Made by a program: the position numbers and the translations under genes. A DNA stretch of 64,000 bases. Source: Bradyrhizobium canariense. Lineage in GTDB: Bacteria > Pseudomonadota > Alphaproteobacteria > Rhizobiales > Xanthobacteraceae. The stretch covers positions 2,542,001 to 2,606,000 of the forward strand of contig NZ_LT629750.1 of assembly GCF_900105125.1 (NCBI RefSeq), written 5' to 3'. Below are positions 14,870-51,534 of the stretch, piece after piece; position 1 is the stretch's first letter; the number at the start of each line of letters is the position of its first letter. The notes beneath the pieces were generated by a model. That model saw only the letters and a list, made by a program, of their open reading frames with translations. It ran no database searches and was not told the DNA's origin.

Positions 14870-16058
14870 TGTCCTGAACCAAAAGTTCGTGGCATTTTAG
14901 ACCTTAGCCGGCGAATTGTAAGCGCAGAAGCGTTCGATCGAGCTGAGAATGTCGTCGGCTGATTTGGTCCATCGGAACGGCCTCGGGTCGGCATTGTGAT
15001 GTTCGATGAATGACGTGATCTCGGCACGTAGCGCCGCCACGCTGCGATAGATGCCGCGCCTGATCTTGCGCTCGGTGATGAGTGCGAAGAAGCGTTCGAG
15101 CTGATTGAGCCAGGATGAACTGGTCGGCGTCAGGTGAACGTGCCAGCGCGGCCTCTTGGCCAACCAGTTGCGGATCAGCGGCGTTTTGTGGGTTGCGTAA
15201 TTGTCCATGACGAGATGAACGTCCAGATCGTCTGGAACAGCGGCTTCGATCTCATCGAGAAACTTGCGGAACTCCTTGGCGCGATGGCGTCCATAGCACT
15301 TGCCGATGATCCGGCCGGTTGCGATGTCGAGGGCGGCAAACAGGGATGTGGTGCCATGGCGCTTGTAGTCGTGACTATGGCGCGCCGGCTGGCCGGGTCG
15401 CATGGGCAGCATGGGCTGGCTACGATCCAGGGCCTGGATCTGCGACTTCTCATCGACGCACAGCACGATGGCGCGCTCGGGCGGCGCCACGTAGAGGCCG
15501 ACGACATCGCGAACCTTGGCGACGAAATCAGGGTCGGTTGAGAGTTTGAAAGTCTCCAGCCGGTGCGGTTGCAGGCCGAAGGCGCGCCATATCCGCTGTA
15601 CCGTGGAGACTGACAGCCCACAGGCCCGAGCCATGCCGCGCGAACTCCAATGGGTGGCGTCGGCGGGCTTGGTCTCAAGGGTGCGGACGATCACCGCCTC
15701 GATCCGGGTATCCTCGATGGTGCGCGGCGTCCCCGATCGCGGCTCGTCCCAAAGACCTTCAAGCCGATGCTCGGCGAAGCGCCGCCGCCACTTGCCAACC
15801 GTGTCGGGATCAACACCCAGGCGGGCCGCCACAACCTTACTCTGCTCGCCGTCGGCACAGGCCAAGACGATCCGGGCTCGTAGCGCCAAGGCCTGCGCCG
15901 TGCTTCGGCGTGAGGCCAGCGACGTCAACTCAGCGCGTTCCACCTCATCCAACTCCAGCGGAGCAAAGCGTCGACCCATCGCCAATCCTCCCCAAAATCT
16001 GGAGAGTCCGCTATCATCGAGTCGATTTAGAGTCCGCCGAACTTCTGATTCAGGACAC
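14869..16058. mobile_element. IS630-family insertion sequence, complete
   Basis: 1190-bp element with one transposase gene. Ends: left GTGTCCTGAACCAAAAGTTC, right (reverse complement) GTGTCCTGAATCAGAAGTTC; the first 21 bases match at 19 positions. A TA dinucleotide flanks both ends (14867-14868 and 16059-16060), the target duplication expected for IS630/Tc1-mariner elements. The transposase is full length, so the element looks intact and recent. It sits between the converging TIGR03808 and TIGR03809 genes. Confidence 0.95.
14897..15985 (-). CDS. IS630 transposase
   Basis: 362 aa. N-terminal helix-turn-helix region ([22 protein letters not shown], then winged helix [21 protein letters not shown]). 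The DDE catalytic core follows: [11 protein letters not shown] (first Asp), [11 protein letters not shown] (second Asp) and [17 protein letters not shown] (Glu). All catalytic acids are present and no frameshift is seen, so the enzyme should be active. It inserts the element at TA sites. Confidence 0.95.
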
Positions 16059-42542: not shown

Positions 42543-45500
42543 CTAATGAAAATCCCGCGAGCGCGGCAGGATACGCACGTTGCGCGGATGGCGGATCTTC
42601 TGCGCCGGATTATCCGGGTGCTCGCGCCGGTCATCATTGACCGCTTCGATCAGCGCAGGCCCTACCGGCAAAGCGTGTTTGCGGGCCCGCGCATCATTGG
42701 CCAGGCCGATCAGATCATGCGAGCGGTCGAACATACGCTGGGCGACCAGATGCGTCACTTCTTCCGGGCTGCTCTGGATGTAGCCTTCGATCAGGATGAG
42801 CCGTGAACCCATCACTTCCTTGCGGAAATGCTCCATCACTTTCGGCCACACCACGATGTTGGCGATGCCGGTTTCGTCCTCCAAAGTCATGAAGACGACG
42901 CCCTTGGAACTGCCCGGACGCTGCCGCACCAGTACGACGCCGGCACAGCGCACACGCTTTTTATCGTTGGCATGGCAAACCTCCGCGCAGGCGATGACGT
43001 GCTCGCGCGAAAACGTCGGCCGCAGAAACTGCATCGGGTGGCCCTTCAGCGACAGGCGGATGGTCTGATAATCGGCGACCACCTGCTCCGGCAGCGGCAT
43101 CAGCGGCAACGGTTTTGCGTTTTCGTCGGGCTGCTCGCGCGCGGTGGCGATTTCGAACAGCGGCAGCGGCACATCGTCCGGTAATCGCCGCACCGCCCAA
43201 AGTGCCGCACGCCGATCAAGCCCAATGGAGCGAAACGCATCGGCATCCGCCAGCAGGATCAGCGCCCGCTTGGGCAAGCCGGTGTCGCGGGCAAAATCCT
43301 CCAGCGAGGTGAAGGGACGGCGGTTACGTGCCGCGATAATGCACTCGGCCCAGTCGTCTGCTTTCTCATCGCCATTCCGGGGCGTCACCACAACATCGTC
43401 ATTCCGGGGCGATGCGACAGCATCGAACCCGGAATCTCGCGATACAACCTCGAGATTCCGGGTCTGGTCCTTTGGACCATCCCGGAATGACGGTGTGGAG
43501 GCATCATCCCGGAATGACGCCTGAATTTTCTTCAACCGCTCATCATCCGGATCGGCCCATTTGAAGCCATCGATCTGGCGGAAGCCGAGCCGCACGGCGT
43601 GATGGTCGCCGTTTTTCTCCTCTAATGTATTCTGGGCAAAACTATAGGAAACATCGATCTCACGCACCTTGACGCCGTTGTTGCGGGCATCGCCGACGAT
43701 CTGCGCCGGCGCGTAAAAGCCCATCGGTTGCGAGTTCAAAAGCCCGCAGCAAAACGCGTCCGGGTGATAATGCTTCAGCCATGACGAGACATAGACGAGC
43801 TGCGCAAAGCTCGCCGCATGGCTCTCCGGGAAACCGTAACTGCCGAAACCTTTGATCTGCTCGAAGCAATTATTGGCAAATGCAGGATCGTAGCCACGCG
43901 CGATCATGTTGCCGATCATCTTGTCGCCGAATTTGCCGATCGTACCGAGATTACGAAAGGTCGCCATCGAGCGGCGCAATCCGTTGGCTTCCTCGGACGT
44001 GAACTTTGCCGCCTCGATGGCAATGCGCATCGCCTGCTCCTGGAACAGCGGCACGCCGAGGGTCTTGTGCAGGACGTTGCGGAGTTCATCCTTGTTGCCG
44101 CCCTTGGGATACGGATATTCGATATCCTCGGGCTTCATTTTCCGGCGCTTCAGGTAAGGATGCACCATGTCGCCCTGGATCGGCCCCGGCCGCACGATCG
44201 CGACCTCGATGACGAGATCATAGAATGTCTTTGGCTTCAGGCGCGGCAGCATGTTCATCTGCGCGCGGCTCTCGACCTGGAATACGCCGAGCGACTCGCC
44301 TCGTTGCAGCATTTGATAAACTTCGTCGTTGTCTACTGATTTGATATCGGCCAGTTCGTAACGCGCGCCCTTATGATCGGCGATCAGATCAAAACATTTG
44401 CGGATGCAGGTAAGCATGCCCAGCGCCAGCACATCGACCTTCATCATGTTCAGCGCGTCGACATCGTCCTTGTCCCATTCGATGAAGGTACGGTCATCCA
44501 TCGCGGCATTTCCGATCGGCACATAGGTATCGAGCCGATCCTGCGTCAGCACATAGCCGCCGACATGCTGGGACAGATGCCGGGGGAATTCGATCAGCTC
44601 GGTGGCAAGCTCGACGGCGAGCTCGATCATCGCATTCTGGGGATCGAGCCCGGCCTGTTTCACCTGCATCTCGCTGAGACCCTTGCCCCAGCTTCCCCAC
44701 ACGGTATCGGCCAATGCCGCGGTGACATCCTCCGTCAGCCCCAGCGCCTTGCCGACATCGCGGATCGCGCTGCGCGGACGATAGTGAATGACGGTTGCGA
44801 TGATCGCGGCACGGTGCCGGCCATAGCGCCGATAGACATATTGCATCACTTCCTCGCGCCGCGAGTGTTCGAAATCGACGTCGATGTCGGGCGGCTCGAG
44901 CCGCTCCTTGGAAATGAAACGCTCGAACAACAGATCGACCTTGGTCGGATCGACGGAGGTGATACCGAGCACGTAGCAGACGGCCGAGTTCGCCGCCGAT
45001 CCCCTGCCCTGGCAAAGGATGTCCTGGCTGCGTGCGTAATGAACGATGTCGTGCACGGTGAGGAAATAATGCGCGTATTTGAGCTCGGCGATGAGATCGA
45101 GCTCCTTCTTCAAGGTCGCACGGAGCGTATCGTCAATCTTGCCGTCAAAATATTGCTTCACACCCGCCCATGTCAGGTCTTCCAGATGCTGTTGTGCGGT
45201 TTTGCCGGGCGGCACCGGCTCGTCCGGATATTGGTATTTGAGCTGATCCATTGAAAACACGATGCGATCGGCAAACCGCATGGTTTCCGCGATCGCCTCC
45301 GGAAGATCGCGAAACAGCCGCGCCATTTCACCCGGCGGCTTCAGATAGCGCTCGGCATTGGCCTCAAGCCGCCTGCCGATGGCATCGATCGTCGTCTTCT
45401 CGCGGATACAGGTGAGCACATCCTGCAGCGGTCGGCGCGCGGGATGATGGTACAGCACCTCGTTGGTCGCGAGCAGCGGCACCCCCGCCGTCGCAGCCAG

Positions 45501-46082
45501 GTGATGCAGCCGTGCCAGACGGCGCCGGTCATCGCCGCGATACAGCAGGCTCGCCGCCAGCCACACGCCATCGGCGCTACTCTCCTGCAACCGTTCCAGA
45601 ATTTTCAAGGCGCTGGCCGCCTCATAGCGGTGCGGCAGCGTCAACACCAGAAGCTGGCCTTCGGAAAATTCCAGGAGATCATCGAGCCTTAAATGGCATT
45701 CGCCCTTCTCGATCTTCTCGGTATCGTTTCCCCGCTTGCCGCGGGTGAGGAGCTGGCACAGCCGGCCATAGGCGGCGCGATCGCGCGGATAGACCAGAAT
45801 ATCCGGCGTGCCGTCGATGAAGACAAGGCGCGAGCCGATCAGAAGTTTCGGCTTGTGCATGACGTCGGGATTGTCGAGTTCCTTGTAAGCCTGCACCACG
45901 CCGGCCAGGGTGTTGTGGTCGGCAATGCCGATCACGGGAAGGCCGAGCTCGCTCGCCTGGTGCACATAAGCCCGCGGATCCGATCCGCCGCGCAGGAATG
46001 AAAAATTCGTGGTGATGCCGATCTCGGCATAACCGGGCGTTGGGGCAATACCGCCTGACTTGGTCATGCGAACAGCCGTCAT
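42543..46082 (-). CDS. dnaE2: Error-prone DNA polymerase III alpha (ImuC/DnaE2)
   Basis: 1179 aa, somewhat longer than the usual about 1080-1150. PHP domain at the N-terminus (EIGITTNFSFLRGGSDP, GIADHNTLAGVV). Polymerase palm with catalytic Asp in PPDIDVDFEHSRREEV (about residues 394-409) and MMKVDVLALGM (about 545). Helix-hairpin-helix near ARDTGLPKRALILL, and a C-terminal OB fold (TLEDETGIANIVVW). The mutasome polymerase performs translesion synthesis with ImuA and ImuB during SOS. Residues about 854-906 are encoded by an inserted palindromic repeat (see repeat at 43364). Its ATG overlaps the imuB stop by 4 bases. Confidence 0.95.
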   Translation of the reverse strand: MTAVRMTKSGGIAPTPGYAEIGITTNFSFLRGGSDPRAYVHQASELGLPVIGIADHNTLAGVVQAYKELDNPDVMHKPKLLIGSRLVFIDGTPDILVYPRDRAAYGRLCQLLTRGKRGNDTEKIEKGECHLRLDDLLEFSEGQLLVLTLPHRYEAASALKILERLQESSADGVWLAASLLYRGDDRRRLARLHHLAATAGVPLLATNEVLYHHPARRPLQDVLTCIREKTTIDAIGRRLEANAERYLKPPGEMARLFRDLPEAIAETMRFADRIVFSMDQLKYQYPDEPVPPGKTAQQHLEDLTWAGVKQYFDGKIDDTLRATLKKELDLIAELKYAHYFLTVHDIVHYARSQDILCQGRGSAANSAVCYVLGITSVDPTKVDLLFERFISKERLEPPDIDVDFEHSRREEVMQYVYRRYGRHRAAIIATVIHYRPRSAIRDVGKALGLTEDVTAALADTVWGSWGKGLSEMQVKQAGLDPQNAMIELAVELATELIEFPRHLSQHVGGYVLTQDRLDTYVPIGNAAMDDRTFIEWDKDDVDALNMMKVDVLALGMLTCIRKCFDLIADHKGARYELADIKSVDNDEVYQMLQRGESLGVFQVESRAQMNMLPRLKPKTFYDLVIEVAIVRPGPIQGDMVHPYLKRRKMKPEDIEYPYPKGGNKDELRNVLHKTLGVPLFQEQAMRIAIEAAKFTSEEANGLRRSMATFRNLGTIGKFGDKMIGNMIARGYDPAFANNCFEQIKGFGSYGFPESHAASFAQLVYVSSWLKHYHPDAFCCGLLNSQPMGFYAPAQIVGDARNNGVKVREIDVSYSFAQNTLEEKNGDHHAVRLGFRQIDGFKWADPDDERLKKIQASFRDDASTPSFRDGPKDQTRNLEVVSRDSGFDAVASPRNDDVVVTPRNGDEKADDWAECIIAARNRRPFTSLEDFARDTGLPKRALILLADADAFRSIGLDRRAALWAVRRLPDDVPLPLFEIATAREQPDENAKPLPLMPLPEQVVADYQTIRLSLKGHPMQFLRPTFSREHVIACAEVCHANDKKRVRCAGVVLVRQRPGSSKGVVFMTLEDETGIANIVVWPKVMEHFRKEVMGSRLILIEGYIQSSPEEVTHLVAQRMFDRSHDLIGLANDARARKHALPVGPALIEAVNDDRREHPDNPAQKIRHPRNVRILPRSRDFH
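43364..43521 (-). repeat. Palindromic repeat element inserted in frame within dnaE2
   Basis: Nested inverted repeats. Left arms CATCGCCATTCCGGGG (about 43366) and CATCGTCATTCCGGGG (43395-43410); right arms CATCCCGGAATGACG (43478-43492) and CATCCCGGAATGACG (43505-43519). Internal CGAGATTCCGGGT pairs with ACCCGGAATCTCG. From memory this is a widespread Bradyrhizobium intergenic repeat. Here it stays open, adding about 51 residues with a repeated FRDD/PRND flavour (SFRDDASTPSFRDGPKD, SPRNDD, TPRNGDE) between the DERLKKIQ and ADDWAECI segments. Confidence 0.8.
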
Positions 46083-47893
46083 GCGAACAATCCATGCACG
46101 AACCAGTTGGCAGGCGTGGGTTTCCCCTCACCGTCCATGAGTTCGCTGCCATAAAGGCCATCGCGAAAAATCCAGAAACGCAGTCCGGCTTCATCCTCGA
46201 TGCGGAAATAATCGCGCGTCAGCACCTCGGCGTTCTGCTTCCACCATTCCATGGCGATGCGCTCGGGCCCCTCCACGCGGACCACCGCATGGGTGGCGCG
46301 GCGCCAGGTGAAATGATGCGGAGGTCCATCCGGCACCGTTGCGAACGGCACCTTGATCGGCTCCGGTCTTTCAAACAGCCGCAGCGGCCGTAATGGAGGC
46401 TCGCTCTCCACACGAGCCGGCCACGCCGCCTGCATCGCTGCGGCCAAATGATGCTGCGCCGGCGCGGCCAGCACCGCGCGCTCCGGAATATGCGTATCCT
46501 GCGGCAAGTACACGACCACGCGCTTGCCGCCGATGCGCGCGGCAATACGGTCGATCAACGCCGCCAGTTCGTCATTGTCATGCACATTGGCATCGAGATC
46601 GCGCTGCTGCTGCACCACGATTTCGGTACGGCTCGCCGACAGGCGAATGAGATCGAAGCCGAAACCGGGATCGAGCGGATCGTTTAACGCATCGAGCCGC
46701 TCGCGAAACAGCCGATCGATGATCTCGCTCCGGGTCACGGGCCGCCCGGTATCCACCACGATCGAGCGCACCGCGCCATCGGTACGGAAGAAGCTCGCTT
46801 CCAGCCGCCGTGCCCCCTTGCCTTGCTTGTCCATTGCCGCGACCAGCATTTGCGCCAGACGGGACAAGGTCACGGAGATCACCTGATCGGTCGCCACCGG
46901 CTCGGCAAAGCGTTTCTCCACGATATAATCCGGCGGCGGCTTTCGGGGACTGATCGGCGCATCGCCCTGCCCTAACGCCTGTTCCAGCAGGGCCGTGAAA
47001 CCAGCGCCAAACCGCGCGGTGATTTCGTGGCGCGCCCGCGAGGCTACATCGCCGATGGTTTTAAGCCCGGCGCGGCGCAGGCCCCGGGTGATGGCGTCAT
47101 CGGCGCCGAGGGCAAACACCGGCAGCGGATCGACCGCGCCGGCCTCCTCGCCATCCGCAACGATGCGGCCATGGACATGACTTCGCATGGTCCGCGCACA
47201 GACGGGGGTACCGGCAATCCCGGCGCTGACGGTAAAGCCTTGCGCGGTCAACACCTCGCACACCAGACGCATCAACGCGGCTTCGCCACCGAACAGATGG
47301 GCACAACCGGTGATGTCGAGAAACAAGCCATGTGGCGGGTCAAGCGCCACCAGCGGCGTGAAGCGGTCGCACCAGTCGGCGATGTCATTCAATGTTTTGA
47401 CGTCGGCAACTTCATCGGCATCGAATACTTTTAATTGCGGAGAGATCGCGCGGGCGTTGGCGAGCGGCAGGCCGATCTCAAGGCCGAGACGGGCGGCGGC
47501 ATCATCCAGCGCGTAAATCTGCAGCGCGTTGTTTTGCTTGGCGACGACGATGCTGGGGGCGTCATCTGAACCATCTCGCGATTTGGTGTCGTTCTCTCCC
47601 CCCTTGCGGGGGCCGAGGCGAGCAAAGCTCGCTCTCGAGGTTAGGGAGGGGGGTCCCGCAAGCTCCGGCGTTTGCGGCTTACCCCCCTCTCCAACTCTCC
47701 CCCGCAAGGGGGGAGAGAGCCGACCATCCGAGTCGTGAGAAATTTCACGCGAACCGATACCCACCTCACGCTGAAACGATTCAGCCGGCGCGGCGCTGTT
47801 GTTGCACCCGAGCTGGCGTTTGATGCGATCGATGGGCAGGCGCGGCAGCCACAGGCTGAGGATACGCCGCCGGTTCGCTGAAAAGGCACTCAT
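46079..47893 (-). CDS. imuB: ImuB, Y-family polymerase-like mutasome subunit
   Basis: 604 aa from ATG 47891-47893 (MSAFSANRRRILSLWLPRLP). Y-family fold features: LWLPRLPIDRIKR at the start, YALDDAAARLGLEIGLPLAN, FDADEVADVKTLNDIADWCD, ITGCAHLFGG, and a C-terminal tail. The catalytic carboxylates of active Y polymerases are not preserved in the expected places, consistent with ImuB being a non-catalytic hub. It links the beta clamp and ImuC/DnaE2. Residues about 59-100 come from an inserted repeat (47594-47717). The start overlaps the imuA end by about 113 bases, and the stop overlaps dnaE2 by 4. Confidence 0.9.
   Translation of the reverse strand: MSAFSANRRRILSLWLPRLPIDRIKRQLGCNNSAAPAESFQREVGIGSREISHDSDGRLSPPLRGRVGEGGKPQTPELAGPPSLTSRASFARLGPRKGGENDTKSRDGSDDAPSIVVAKQNNALQIYALDDAAARLGLEIGLPLANARAISPQLKVFDADEVADVKTLNDIADWCDRFTPLVALDPPHGLFLDITGCAHLFGGEAALMRLVCEVLTAQGFTVSAGIAGTPVCARTMRSHVHGRIVADGEEAGAVDPLPVFALGADDAITRGLRRAGLKTIGDVASRARHEITARFGAGFTALLEQALGQGDAPISPRKPPPDYIVEKRFAEPVATDQVISVTLSRLAQMLVAAMDKQGKGARRLEASFFRTDGAVRSIVVDTGRPVTRSEIIDRLFRERLDALNDPLDPGFGFDLIRLSASRTEIVVQQQRDLDANVHDNDELAALIDRIAARIGGKRVVVYLPQDTHIPERAVLAAPAQHHLAAAMQAAWPARVESEPPLRPLRLFERPEPIKVPFATVPDGPPHHFTWRRATHAVVRVEGPERIAMEWWKQNAEVLTRDYFRIEDEAGLRFWIFRDGLYGSELMDGEGKPTPANWFVHGLFA
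47594..47717 (-). repeat. Palindromic repeat element inserted in frame within imuB
   Basis: A perfect 19-bp inverted repeat closes the element: CTCTCCCCCCTTGCGGGGG (47594-47612) and its complement (47699-47717), with a partly palindromic interior. It is translated as a Pro/Gly/Arg-rich insert (RLSPPLRGRVGEGGKPQT, ASFARLGPRKGGEND), the typical translation of such repeats. It lies between the DRIKRQLG region and the VVAKQNNALQIYALDD region, which are adjacent or separated by a short loop in other ImuB proteins (from memory). No stop codon results. Confidence 0.82.
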
Positions 47894-48614
47894 CACATTT
47901 CCATTCCATGATCCATCGCCCAACAAGGCCATGACGATTTCGAATGAGCTGCGCGTCGAACACAGGCGCACCCCATGTGCTCCAGGGCGCCGCAGGCAGT
48001 GAAGGCGCCGCGCGCACGATCCATCTTGTCTCCGCGGTTGAAGGCGACGGCTCTGCTGCCACGCGCAGCAGCAGACAGGTGACGCCAGAGGCTTGTGCGG
48101 TCAGCGTCAGCTTGCGGCTGGCGACGAGGTCGAGTTGACGTGCCTCGCCCCAGACTTCCAGCACCACAGCGCCCACCGCATCGCAGGCAAGCGCATCGGC
48201 CGCCGTTCGCAACGCGCCGTCGACATCAGCCGCGCGCACGGTCACCAATTGCCGCGGATCGAGGCCAAGCTCGGCCAACCCGCTCATCGACAGCGCGCCT
48301 GATTCAATTTCGGTGAAATCCTGCCGCACCCACACCAAAGGCCGGCGTGATGACACCCGCCCCGCGAGCCCTGCGATGAACCCGGTGGCCGCACCACTTT
48401 GGTGTCCCTCGGCGAACACCTCGTGCACGGCAGCTCTGGCGAGGCCGCCCTGCAGCGTCGCATCCGCCTCGGCATGGCCGAGCGGCACCCTGTTGAGCGC
48501 GTACGCAGCGCCAGGCGTTTCGATGCGCTCGATGCTGCCGCGTAAAGTCGCAAGCGTGCTGGTGCGTGCGGCGCATGATCCGCCAAAGTGTGAGCGGTTT
48601 GGCGACAAGATCAT
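47781..48614 (-). CDS. imuA: ImuA, RecA-like mutasome accessory protein
   Basis: 277 aa. RecA-superfamily-like core without a clear Walker A: GLARAAVHEVFAEGHQSGAA, PLVWVRQDFTEIESGALSMS, GLDPRQLVTVRAADVDGAL, AVVLEVWGEARQLDL, and a C-terminal GRWIMEWKCDE. This is the ImuA form found upstream of imuB-dnaE2 in alphaproteobacteria. It opens the SOS operon and is required for ImuB/DnaE2 mutagenesis. AAGAGGGG precedes the ATG at 48612-48614. The LexA-type box is about 140 bases upstream. Confidence 0.88.
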   Translation of the reverse strand: MILSPNRSHFGGSCAARTSTLATLRGSIERIETPGAAYALNRVPLGHAEADATLQGGLARAAVHEVFAEGHQSGAATGFIAGLAGRVSSRRPLVWVRQDFTEIESGALSMSGLAELGLDPRQLVTVRAADVDGALRTAADALACDAVGAVVLEVWGEARQLDLVASRKLTLTAQASGVTCLLLRVAAEPSPSTAETRWIVRAAPSLPAAPWSTWGAPVFDAQLIRNRHGLVGRWIMEWKCDECLFSEPAAYPQPVAAAPAHRSHQTPARVQQQRRAG

Positions 48615-48634
48615 GCGCCCCTCTTAAAAAAAGT

Positions 48635-48682
48635 GAGCGCGATCGGACGCAAAACCGGCGACCACTTTTGCTGATCGCGCTC
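48635..48682. repeat. Short palindromic dispersed repeat in the imuA leader
   Basis: Perfect 10-bp inverted repeat GAGCGCGATC (48635-48644) / GATCGCGCTC (48673-48682) around ACGCAAAACCGGCGACCACT. This is the common rhizobial form with an AAACCGG...CACTTTTG core (recollection). It sits between the LexA box and imuA, so it would be transcribed in the imuA 5' leader. Confidence 0.6.
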
Positions 48683-48753
48683 GCACATGCGCCGCTCCTC
48701 GAAAATATTGGACTGCCAGTGGTTCTTTGCATGAACCCGAAGCTGGCTCATTT

Positions 48754-48768
48754 GTTCATGATATGTTC
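48754..48768. promoter_or_regulatory. LexA (SOS) box, GTTC-N7-GTTC
   Basis: GTTCATGATATGTTC exactly fits the alphaproteobacterial LexA consensus GTTCN7GTTC. It lies in the 236-bp space between divergent imuA (140 bp to its ATG) and the radical SAM gene (83 bp to its ATG). A TAATAT follows immediately on the plus strand (48769-48774) and could be a -10 element for rightward transcription. LexA bound here would block both operons. Confidence 0.8.
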
Positions 48769-48850
48769 TAATATAAAGCTAACAGGGCCCGCGGAGTCAA
48801 TCGAATTGGCGCTTCAGGCGATTCATGAATGGAATCAAGAGGATTCAGCG

Positions 48851-50089
48851 ATGGATGTGCAACGCAAGCTGGAAATCCTGGCGGATGCAGCCAAATACGA
48901 CGCTTCCTGCGCCTCCAGCGGCACCGAGCGGCGGGATAGCAGCGACGGCAAGGGCATGGGTTCGACCGCCCCCGGCATGGGCATCTGCCATTCCTACGCG
49001 CCGGATGGACGCTGCATCTCGCTGTTGAAAGTCCTTTTGACCAATGCCTGCAATTACGACTGCCTTTATTGCGTCAATCGCACCTCGAGCAACGTACCGC
49101 GCGCGCGTTTCACAACGGATGAAGTGGTGAAGCTGACGCTCGACTTCTATCGCCGCAATTACATCGAGGGATTGTTTCTCTCCTCCGGCATTATCCGCAG
49201 CGCCGACTACACCATGGAGCAGGTGGTGGGCGTCGCGCGCAAATTGCGCGAAGAACATCACTTCCGCGGCTACATCCATCTGAAAACCATTCCGGAAGCC
49301 GACGACGCGCTGATCGCGCAGGCCGGCAAATACGCCGATCGCCTCAGCATCAACATCGAAGTCCCGGAAGAGACGAGTCTGGCGAAACTGGCGCCGGAGA
49401 AAGATGTGCGCGCAATCCGCCGCACCATGGGCCGGCTGCGATTGAAACTCGATGAAGCGCAGGAGAACAGCAAGACCCCGACGAGAACAAAACCGCCGCG
49501 CTTTGCACCGGCCGGCCAGAGCACGCAGATGATCGTCGGCGCGGATGCCGCCAACGACCAGACCATCCTCGACACGTCAGCCAATCTCTATGGCTCCTAC
49601 AAGCTCAAGCGGGTTTATTACTCGGCGTTCAGCCCGATCCCCGATGCCAGCCGCGCCCTGCCCTTAGCCGCGCCGCCGCTGGTTCGCGAACACCGGCTCT
49701 ACCAGGCCGACTGGCTGATACGGTTTTACGGTTTCGATGTCGGCGAAATCGTCGACCAGGCGGAAGGCATGCTGCCGCTCGACATCGATCCAAAGCTCGC
49801 CTGGGCGCTGCGGCACCGCGACCGCTTCCCGCTCGATATCGCCCGCGCCAGCCGCGAAGAATTGCTGCGCGTGCCCGGCTTCGGCACCAAGGCGGTCGAC
49901 CGCATCATCGCCACCCGCCGCGTCACATCCATTCGCGTCGCCGATCTGGCCCGGCTGCACATCCCCCGAAACAAGGCTTTGCCCTTCGTCGTTCTCAGCG
50001 ATCACCGGCCGCCACCGCATCTTTTGGACGATGCGCGGCTGGCGGAGCGGTTCAAGCCGAAGGCGAAACAGCTCGGATTTGGCTTCTGA
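48851..50089 (+). CDS. Radical SAM protein, putative DNA repair/modification (TIGR03916-type)
   Basis: 412 aa from ATG 48851. The reading frame is open far upstream, but the N-terminus MDVQRKLEILADAAKYDASC is the typical family start. The [4Fe-4S] motif is CX3CX2C at C67, C71 and C74 (NACNYDCLYCVN). The C-terminus holds a helix-hairpin-helix (LLRVPGFGTKAVDRIIATRR), which suggests DNA contact, plus LGFGF. This is the uncharacterised rSAM family named for its invariable linkage to a uracil-DNA glycosylase gene, which follows here with a 1-base overlap. Substrate unknown. Confidence 0.88.
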   Translation: MDVQRKLEILADAAKYDASCASSGTERRDSSDGKGMGSTAPGMGICHSYAPDGRCISLLKVLLTNACNYDCLYCVNRTSSNVPRARFTTDEVVKLTLDFYRRNYIEGLFLSSGIIRSADYTMEQVVGVARKLREEHHFRGYIHLKTIPEADDALIAQAGKYADRLSINIEVPEETSLAKLAPEKDVRAIRRTMGRLRLKLDEAQENSKTPTRTKPPRFAPAGQSTQMIVGADAANDQTILDTSANLYGSYKLKRVYYSAFSPIPDASRALPLAAPPLVREHRLYQADWLIRFYGFDVGEIVDQAEGMLPLDIDPKLAWALRHRDRFPLDIARASREELLRVPGFGTKAVDRIIATRRVTSIRVADLARLHIPRNKALPFVVLSDHRPPPHLLDDARLAERFKPKAKQLGFGF

Positions 50090-51534
50090 TGCACCTCATA
50101 ACCCTCGACAACGAAACAGATTTCGATGGCTGGCGTAAAGCTGCGCGGGCATTGGCGCTGAACCATGTGAACCCGTCCGACGTGACATGGACGCTGCGCG
50201 GCAGCGAGCCCGAACTGTTCGAACAAGCCGCCGAAGCTCCACCGTTTGAACCGGCGTCAGGCACTTTCAACGTGTCAGCCAAATTCGTCGAACTGGCGCA
50301 ATCCGCGATCCTGCACCGCGATCCCCAGCGCTTTGCGATCCTCTATCGCCTGCTGTGGCGGTTGCGCAGCAACCACGATCTGCTTGACGTCGCGACCGAT
50401 CCCGATGTCGCGCAGGTCACGGCAATGGCCAGGGCCGTGCGCCGCGATGAACACAAGATGCACGCCTTCGTCCGCTTTCGCGAAGTCGGGCGCGAACAGA
50501 AATCGCATTTCGTGGCCTGGTTCGAACCTGAGCATCACATCGTCGAGGCGGCCGCGCCGTTCTTCGCGCGGCGTTTCGCCGACATGCCCTGGTCGATCCT
50601 GACCCCTGACGTCTGCGCCCATTGGGACGGCCATGCGGTCTCCATGACATCCGGCGTCGGCAAGGCTGACGCGCCGAGCGAGGACCGGCTGGAGGAAACC
50701 TGGCGGCGGTACTACGCCAGCATCTTCAATCCGGCCCGGCTGAAGGTGAAAGCCATGCAAACCGAGATGCCCAGGAAATACTGGAGGAACCTGCCGGAAG
50801 CCTCGATCATTAAACCCTTGATCGCCGATGCCGAACGCCTGGCCGGTGCCATGATCGCCAAAGCCGCAACCGAACCGCATAAGTCCCAGAAACGGCCGGA
50901 GCCACCCATGAAACCCCCGCATGCAGGATCCGGCACTATCGAAGCGTTGCGCGAGGAAGCAGCCGATTGCCGCGCCTGCCCGCTCTGGAAAGATGCGACG
51001 CAAACCGTGTTCGGCGAAGGTCCGCAGCACGCGCAAGTGATGCTGGTCGGCGAGCAGCCCGGCGACAAGGAAGACCTCGCCGGCAAGCCCTTTGTCGGAC
51101 CGGCGGGACAGATGCTCGACCGGGCGCTGCAAGAAGCCGGCATTGATCGCACAAAGACTTATGTCACCAACGCGGTAAAGCACTTCAAGTTTGTGCCGCG
51201 CGGCAAAATCCGCCTGCATCAGAAACCGAACACGCCGGAGATCAGGGCATGCCGGCCATGGTACGAGCGCGAACTGGCCTCAATCCAACCCGCGCTGGTG
51301 GTCGCGATGGGCGCAACCGCGGCGCAAAGCGTGTTCGGAAAAATCACACCGATCAACAAGCACCGTGGGCGCCTGATTGACCTCCAGGACGGCATCAAGG
51401 CGCTGGTGACAGTGCATCCATCCTATCTGCTGCGATTGCCGGACGAAGACGCCAAGGCGCGGGAATATCAGCGCTTTGTCGATGATCTCCGGATTGCCGC
51501 CGATTTGTTGAAAAAAGCCGCGCACGCGGCCTGA
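50089..51534 (+). CDS. UdgX-type uracil-DNA glycosylase fused to TIGR03915 domain
   Basis: 481 aa. N-terminal about 270 residues (DFDGWRKAARALALNHVNPS, RFREVGREQKSHFVAWFEPE, YYASIFNPARLKVKAMQTEM) match the TIGR03915 domain. The C-terminal half is a family 4-like UDG with GEQPGDKEDLAGKPF at about residue 321, and the UdgX loop K373-I-R-L-H377 inside KFVPRGKIRLHQKPN. H377 corresponds to the His that forms a covalent bond with uracil-DNA in mycobacterial UdgX (KRRIH there). TVHPSYLLR contains H443. It is probably SOS-induced with the upstream rSAM gene. Confidence 0.88.
   Translation: MHLITLDNETDFDGWRKAARALALNHVNPSDVTWTLRGSEPELFEQAAEAPPFEPASGTFNVSAKFVELAQSAILHRDPQRFAILYRLLWRLRSNHDLLDVATDPDVAQVTAMARAVRRDEHKMHAFVRFREVGREQKSHFVAWFEPEHHIVEAAAPFFARRFADMPWSILTPDVCAHWDGHAVSMTSGVGKADAPSEDRLEETWRRYYASIFNPARLKVKAMQTEMPRKYWRNLPEASIIKPLIADAERLAGAMIAKAATEPHKSQKRPEPPMKPPHAGSGTIEALREEAADCRACPLWKDATQTVFGEGPQHAQVMLVGEQPGDKEDLAGKPFVGPAGQMLDRALQEAGIDRTKTYVTNAVKHFKFVPRGKIRLHQKPNTPEIRACRPWYERELASIQPALVVAMGATAAQSVFGKITPINKHRGRLIDLQDGIKALVTVHPSYLLRLPDEDAKAREYQRFVDDLRIAADLLKKAAHAA

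Follow-up and report, generated by a model that had tools for sequence, protein, structure and literature searches.

We analysed a 64,000-nucleotide stretch of Bradyrhizobium canariense DNA (contig NZ_LT629750.1, positions 2,542,001 to 2,606,000; hereafter the window, in whose coordinates positions are given) and found a single, conserved LexA-type box between two divergent operons, one encoding the ImuA-ImuB-DnaE2 mutasome and the other a radical SAM (rSAM) protein followed by a fusion of the domains DUF4130 and UdgX. The sequence makes it very likely that both operons are under SOS control through this one predicted LexA operator, and a shared LexA operator over two divergent SOS operons, together with the mechanism proposed below, is in our estimate the best explanation as a whole, with a probability of about 0.7. 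The features concerned are:

48754 to 48768, plus strand: predicted LexA-type operator GTTCATGATATGTTC (GTTC-N7-GTTC), between imuA and the rSAM gene
48742 to 48783, no strand assigned: strongly conserved block around the operator, from an alignment of 47 loci
48851 to 50089, plus strand: rSAM gene, TIGR03916 (rSAM_link_UDG), 412 aa, with a C-terminal helix-hairpin-helix domain; 564.3 bits against a cut-off of 343.5
50089 to 51534, plus strand: DUF4130-UdgX fusion, 481 aa; TIGR03915 233 bits and TIGR03914 351 bits, both above cut-off
47781 to 48614, minus strand: imuA; NF033429, E 1.2e-11, 44.9 bits, below the cut-off of 150
46079 to 47971, minus strand: imuB, Y-family polymerase-like, with IMS domains
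42543 to 46082, minus strand: dnaE2, error-prone polymerase; PRK05672, 1537 bits

A LexA-type box between divergent operons

An earlier note on this DNA had placed one LexA box between a mutasome and an rSAM/UdgX pair. Both the sequence of the box and its coordinates were correct when the sequence was read again, and profile matches agreed with the divergent layout: imuA, imuB and dnaE2 follow in this order on the minus strand, with only ImuA scoring under its family cut-off, and on the plus strand the stop codon of the rSAM gene overlaps the start of the DUF4130-UdgX fusion (TGATG, 50087-50091). We take TIGR03916, by its name, to be the COG4277-type rSAM family.

The motif alone proves nothing, because its counts are near chance, with two GTTC-N7-GTTC copies in the window against 1.74 expected, and 227 in the genome against 196 for a reversed control motif. 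The significance of the box comes instead from its position and conservation: like the operators of the alphaproteobacterial LexA regulon, it is a GTTC-N7-GTTC site in a promoter region that is conserved among relatives. As a positive control, the lexA gene of the same genome carries the box GTTCGATATGTGTTC about 110-115 bases upstream.

We then compared 48 Bradyrhizobium genomes (47 and the window's own), of which 27 encode rSAM above the cut-off. The synteny comparison proposed in the earlier note was borne out, since 26 of the 27 rSAM loci have rSAM divergent from imuA and a box 95-108 bases ahead of the rSAM gene; in the sole exception (L009), from an 80% complete draft, unrelated sequence replaces the box, and no imuA was found in that draft. 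The box also precedes imuA in all 21 same-genus loci without rSAM. With L009 set aside, 44 of 47 loci share an identical 15-mer; identity averages 89% over the 16 bases preceding the box and 98% over the 15 that follow, compared with 54% at 17-60 bases before it. The block at 48742-48783 probably overlaps both divergent promoters.

Among the loci without rSAM, 20 of 21 were fetched with more flank (G040, at a contig end, was left out), and 19 of these 20 have a UdgX reading frame with the GEQPG, K-x-R-x-H and HPS motifs behind the box. Where its start could be placed, this frame begins within about 420 bases past the box; in L239 the longest frame begins before it. DUF4130 accompanies UdgX in seventeen of the 19 and is missing from the other two. 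The remaining locus (G047, L232) has lost UdgX and all of rSAM except a remnant, with the box kept. UdgX is thus retained behind the box more stubbornly than rSAM in the genus. On a tree of ImuA (47 same-genus rows and seven outgroup rows; L009, having no imuA, is absent), rSAM presence changes eight times, of which at least five changes are forced by well supported branches. The tree cannot separate loss from gain of rSAM; remnants still in place in L060, L064 and L066 argue for loss.

Two further places in the genome showed similar sites by eye. An identical 15-base box (G000:C1:1797976-1797990; L084:977-991) lies before two small genes, a possible SOS-controlled pair that would comprise an AbrB/MazE-type antitoxin and a PIN-type toxin, and two facing LexA-type boxes (G000:C1:1076967-1076999; L085:968-1000) lie upstream of the start of a DNA polymerase III alpha-like frame.

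Operators and mutasome linkage in other groups

Outside the genus, 29 alphaproteobacterial loci (3 + 26) were compared, with G051 giving no locus and L059 excluded as below cut-off. Of these, 26 have a box close to the start of rSAM, at -16 to -53; in L044 it lies 30 bases inside the assigned rSAM frame, the start of which was probably set too early. Divergent imuA beside rSAM was detected in none of the 29, and two (L036, L039) have tandem layouts. A search for imuA in the same 29 genomes was positive in 22. Of 26 imuA loci examined, 22 of the 23 that could be anchored have their own box at imuA (L142 has none; L143, L145 and L146 were not anchored). In the GTDB family, rSAM scores above the cut-off in 82 of 244 genomes; 25 of 28 newly fetched family loci (seven of the same genus) are divergent with a box between, and the remaining three (L099, L101, L117) have no adjoining imuA and their own box at rSAM. 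Two rSAM genes in other genera of the family look broken, one lying in two stretches (G473:C350:3897-5074) and one with an internal TAG (G523:C35:96671-97852).

A wider set comprised 80 named loci, those with the highest scores among at least 591 relatives. Titles place 62 of them in the Alphaproteobacteria (L206 was assigned from the rSAM tree), and 59 of these 62, in mixed layouts, have a box near rSAM. The window thus has a single conserved box between two operons that in other groups mostly own one each. Loci of other groups were scanned for exact matches to LexA motifs, and seven of 11 betaproteobacterial loci have an exact CTGT-N8-ACAG 15-38 bases before the rSAM start; the background rate, computed over the 18 non-alphaproteobacterial loci with the true sites included, is 0.013 per 280 bases. 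This switch of operator motif with host group is, in our view, the strongest sign that the rSAM operon genuinely belongs to the SOS response. All three Xanthomonadaceae rSAM genes (L162, L164, L208) have, by eye, an upstream palindrome GTCTCA-N5-TGAGAC that is unlike the LexA motifs tried.

Linkage with the mutasome appears to be recurrent. On a tree of rSAM (81 rows, quick method; 72 scored and nine unscored for short flanks), adjacency to the mutasome changes five times, four of them forced by starred branches, which we read as about four gains; the adjacency in Nitrobacteraceae and Methylopila may have one shared origin. The rSAM gene is divergent from imuABC in the Nitrobacteraceae rows, in Methylopila (L153, three boxes between) and in Henriciella (L195, two boxes between), and in a Sphingomonadales/Erythrobacteraceae group rSAM, DUF4130-UdgX and the mutasome genes all lie on one strand. 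In six loci (L193, L199, L213, L219, L247, L248), dnaE2 shares the strand of UdgX and lies no more than about 0.4 kb behind it. Five of these (all but L213) were re-examined; no box was found between UdgX and dnaE2, and dnaE2 is therefore probably under the rSAM operator there. Upstream on the same strand, imuA-imuB is present in five of the six (in L193 not within the flank), with its own box in all four of those five that were checked; L247, from a single-contig genome, and L248 have opposite-strand open frames between imuB and rSAM.

The leader of the rSAM gene holds a second conserved element:

48794 to 48846, no strand assigned: four GANTC (CcrM-type) sites, at 48794, 48820, 48832 and 48842, in the rSAM leader outside the box

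Over 26 loci, the segment from box to ATG holds a mean of 3.8 GANTC sites against 0.30 in base shuffles, and 19 of the 26 have four sites at near-fixed positions. The window has 106 GANTC sites in total, and four fall within 82 bases at two places only, the rSAM leader and 16004-16051, where they span 48 bases. The genome encodes GcrA-type (three matches) and CcrM-type RAMA proteins. An RNA hairpin was considered for the leader and rejected, as the RNAalifold covariation term over nine leaders was +0.06 kcal/mol; we therefore read the GATTC/GAATC repeats as DNA (GANTC) sites. In Caulobacter relatives, imuA is among the SOS genes with conserved GANTC, for which the available text of PMC7987155 suggests overlap with LexA sites as the reason; in the window, none of the four leader sites falls within the box.

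On the other side of the box, a palindromic-looking insert (about 48570-48685, by eye) provides the imuA start codon and the first 15 or so residues. It is absent from most relatives compared and present in L064 and L065; its core pattern has one further copy in the genome, with two mismatches, and an inverted-repeat finder returned nothing at the settings used.

Several findings weigh against dual control. In Bradyrhizobium, rSAM is missing from 21 of the 48 genomes, and in G047 the box outlived UdgX and most of rSAM, so that conservation of the box alone is no proof of control over rSAM. The box starts at -97 relative to the rSAM start (ATG at 48851), against -16 to -53 in class loci with their own boxes (L044 aside), and it lies about -80 from a presumed ancestral imuA start (48688, by eye) and about -154 from the present one (48614); by the ancestral start it fits imuA better than rSAM. 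A consensus scan of 48560-48900 gave no sigma-70-like promoter, so no -35/-10 boxes are claimed, and no consensus terminator was found in the same interval. A box is lacking at rSAM in three of the 29 class loci (L033, L038, L042) and in L154, L159 and L205 among the named alphaproteobacterial loci, and no exact match to the motifs tried was found in four of the 11 betaproteobacterial, four gammaproteobacterial and three verrucomicrobial loci. Finally, 60 of the 72 scored rSAM rows do not adjoin the mutasome, and some of the changes in adjacency may be losses.

Read in this light, the box might serve imuA alone, leaving rSAM-udgX as a mere neighbour whose promoter, immediately downstream, is constitutive or under cell-cycle (GcrA/CcrM) control. 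The distance of about -80 falls within the range of solo imuA loci (-4 to -84, counting those boxes that precede the assigned imuA start) and is far from rSAM, and both the box kept in G047 and the conserved GANTC cluster, in a genome with gcrA-type and CcrM-type genes, are consistent with this. We consider it unlikely, however, as most rSAM loci elsewhere come with a box of their own, which in Betaproteobacteria is another LexA motif, the conserved block runs toward rSAM beyond the box as far as 48783, and UdgX remains behind the box once rSAM is lost. Dual SOS control accordingly stays our preferred reading. The orientation of the box was also considered as a clue to its operon of origin and was dropped, some solo rSAM and imuA loci being oriented oppositely.

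The rSAM and DUF4130-UdgX proteins

The following motifs of the two proteins bear on their predicted functions:

51217 to 51219, plus strand: His377 codon; the residue corresponds to His109 of MsmUdgX, which forms the covalent bond (KIRLH against KRRIH)
49049 to 49072, plus strand: CX3CX2C radical SAM motif CNYDCLYC, residues 67-74; its three cysteines are present in 81 of 81 rows
50069 to 50086, plus strand: C-terminal QLGFGF, residues 407-412, a hexapeptide-like form of the beta-clamp motif; Gln407 is present in 81 of 81 rows

The UdgX half of the fusion matches solved UdgX chains (6AJO, E 7.7e-60) and carries motif A (GEQPG), the R-loop histidine and motif B (HPS...R), so that the UdgX fusion of the earlier note stands, as a DUF4130-UdgX protein with the predicted covalent-capture histidine. 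GEQPG, the R-loop histidine and HPS are shared with MsmUdgX (PDB 6AJO and others); in contrast to MsmUdgX, the window domain is the C-terminal half of a 481 aa DUF4130 fusion within an rSAM operon. UdgX activity, not necessarily that of this gene, is reported in B. diazoefficiens in the available text of PMC10359453.

A DUF4130 partner frame was found in 78 of the 80 named loci (not in L184 or L218), 77 of them complete. The UdgX domain is present in 67 of these 77, all with the R-loop histidine (64 by pattern and three by eye); the other ten lack it, with none found within the fetched flanks. Between genera, rSAM and DUF4130 are the steadier pair, and in Bradyrhizobium UdgX outlives rSAM. In G515 (L249:7867-10329), the DUF4130 and UdgX matches lie about 1.1 kb apart, unlike the usual fusion. 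No solved relative of note was found for the DUF4130 profile (best E 0.71).

These distributions bear on whether rSAM is devoted to UdgX, resolving or activating its crosslinks with DNA, as the tight operon with its stop/start overlap and the name rSAM_link_UDG might suggest. Such a dedicated reaction is very improbable because of the steadier rSAM-DUF4130 pairing and the survival of UdgX after rSAM: it would have to accommodate both the ten complete partners without UdgX and the 19 of 20 rSAM-less same-genus loci that retain UdgX with its capture histidine.

The window rSAM protein has the CX3CX2C motif of the radical SAM superfamily, and Cys 20, 46, 55, 67, 71 and 74 and His47 are invariant in all 81 rSAM rows. 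Cys 20, 46 and 55 may, speculatively, bind a second cluster or donate hydrogen. The rSAM profile gave only weak partial matches to solved structures (best E 0.016, a ComEA-like helix-hairpin-helix protein), a single-sequence search gave a best E of 0.41, and the NCBIfam name rSAM_link_UDG states no reaction.

QL(S/D)LF is the beta-clamp consensus. Of 80 rSAM proteins, 55 have the pattern Q[LM]xL[FLW] among their C-terminal 15 residues, with no copy elsewhere in 32,088 residues. A QL[SDE]LF tail is present in 30 of the 80, a looser penta- or hexapeptide form in 75, and a still looser form in 80 of the 81 aligned rows (all but L184), the commonest tails being QLSLF (16) and QLELF (12); none of the 78 DUF4130(-UdgX) partners has a clamp-like tail pattern. 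The window tail QLGFGF resembles the hexapeptide form of the motif. In form, the rSAM C-terminus is reminiscent of an anchor to the replication clamp, on which the protein may dock. This is tempered by the window's own tail being a weaker form of the motif and by ImuB and DnaE2 of the window showing only weak clamp-motif look-alikes. In mycobacteria, ImuB carries the beta-clamp motif QLPLWG, and motif mutants phenocopy loss of imuB (PMC10421592, available text).

Alternatively, the rSAM protein could resemble spore photoproduct lyase (SPL, SplB) and undo a pyrimidine photoproduct as part of the SOS response. SplB (COG1533) is likewise a radical SAM protein in a DNA repair context with predicted SOS control in some bacteria, and the helix-hairpin-helix domain of the window protein suits DNA. 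No SPL family appears, however, among the 20 NCBIfam matches of rSAM up to E = 1, in a library that presumably includes SPL models; the window protein further differs from SplB in having the helix-hairpin-helix domain and the clamp-like tail, and its three extra invariant cysteines allow another chemistry. As far as the available texts go, PMC3765255 links DUF4130 with SplB-like rSAM and uracil-DNA glycosylase (UDG) and suggests thymine modification, SOS-controlled splB is predicted in alpha- and betaproteobacteria (PMC3323433), and PMC8565304 treats splB (COG1533) and COG4277 as separate SOS genes. On balance an SplB-like reaction is rather improbable, somewhat less so than control of imuA alone.

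Proposed mechanism and known systems

The operator, its conservation, the operon structure, the catalytic residues and the tail motif are supported by the sequence; LexA binding, clamp binding, the substrate and the order of events are what we infer. LexA on 48754-48768 would keep both imuA-imuB-dnaE2 and rSAM-(DUF4130-UdgX) shut, and upon DNA damage RecA-stimulated cleavage of LexA would open both. The rSAM protein would grip DNA via its helix-hairpin-helix domain, dock via its Q-x-x-L-F-type tail on the sliding clamp, the same clamp that ImuB uses in mycobacteria, and, at the stalled fork, use radical chemistry to process damage to a base or sugar. UdgX would covalently cap uracil or abasic sites, preventing them from being cut into breaks, while DnaE2 fills in; such capping against breaks is a role proposed for UdgX (PMC10359453, available text). 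The rSAM-DUF4130(-UdgX) operon may be an old proteobacterial SOS operon, mostly with its own box, that came to share its operator with the mutasome in the Nitrobacteraceae lineage. The full version, in which a clamp-docked TIGR03916 lesion-processing enzyme works with ImuAB-DnaE2 at stalled forks, as a radical-chemistry arm of the SOS mutasome with DUF4130/UdgX as accessory, gated in Bradyrhizobium by one LexA operator and CcrM methylation of the rSAM leader, is put forward tentatively, as a possibility with clearly less than even odds.

The earlier note had regarded the locus as a candidate for an undescribed system, which is too strong: the NCBIfam name is rSAM_link_UDG, and SOS control of the pair is published (PMC8565304). 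The available text of PMC8565304 predicts LexA-type control of a COG1573-COG4277 (UDG/rSAM) operon in Bacteroidetes and cites it, with Erill 2016 and Paes da Rocha 2008, for Verrucomicrobia and Alphaproteobacteria, and that of PMC3765255 ties DUF4130 to SplB-like rSAM and UDG in the SOS network. The window pair has the same two gene families under SOS-type control; it differs in sharing its operator with imuA-imuB-dnaE2 and in the fusion of DUF4130 to UdgX, and the available text of PMC8565304 describes neither a divergent nor an embedded arrangement with the mutasome and mentions no clamp motif. Similarly, the minus-strand operon is the same cassette as the known ImuA-ImuB-DnaE2 mutasome, in which mycobacterial ImuB acts via the beta clamp; the available text of PMC10421592 mentions no rSAM/UdgX part, whereas in the window rSAM/UdgX probably share the mutasome switch, and in some Sphingomonadales/Erythrobacteraceae genomes dnaE2 comes immediately after UdgX. 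A limited literature search returned no report of the shared operator, recurrent mutasome adjacency, dnaE2 behind UdgX, the clamp-like rSAM tail, rSAM loss with UdgX kept or the conserved GANTC cluster, and no paper joining UdgX with radical SAM or with imuB, or radical SAM with a clamp-binding motif or with sliding clamp and uracil-DNA glycosylase.

Genome-wide methods for uracil make use of UdgX, and its cellular role is described as largely unknown in the available text of PMC10359453. One switch for rSAM/UdgX and the mutasome, together with the clamp motif of rSAM, leads to directly testable roles. If this reading is true, SOS mutagenesis in many Proteobacteria would bring its own lesion-chemistry module.

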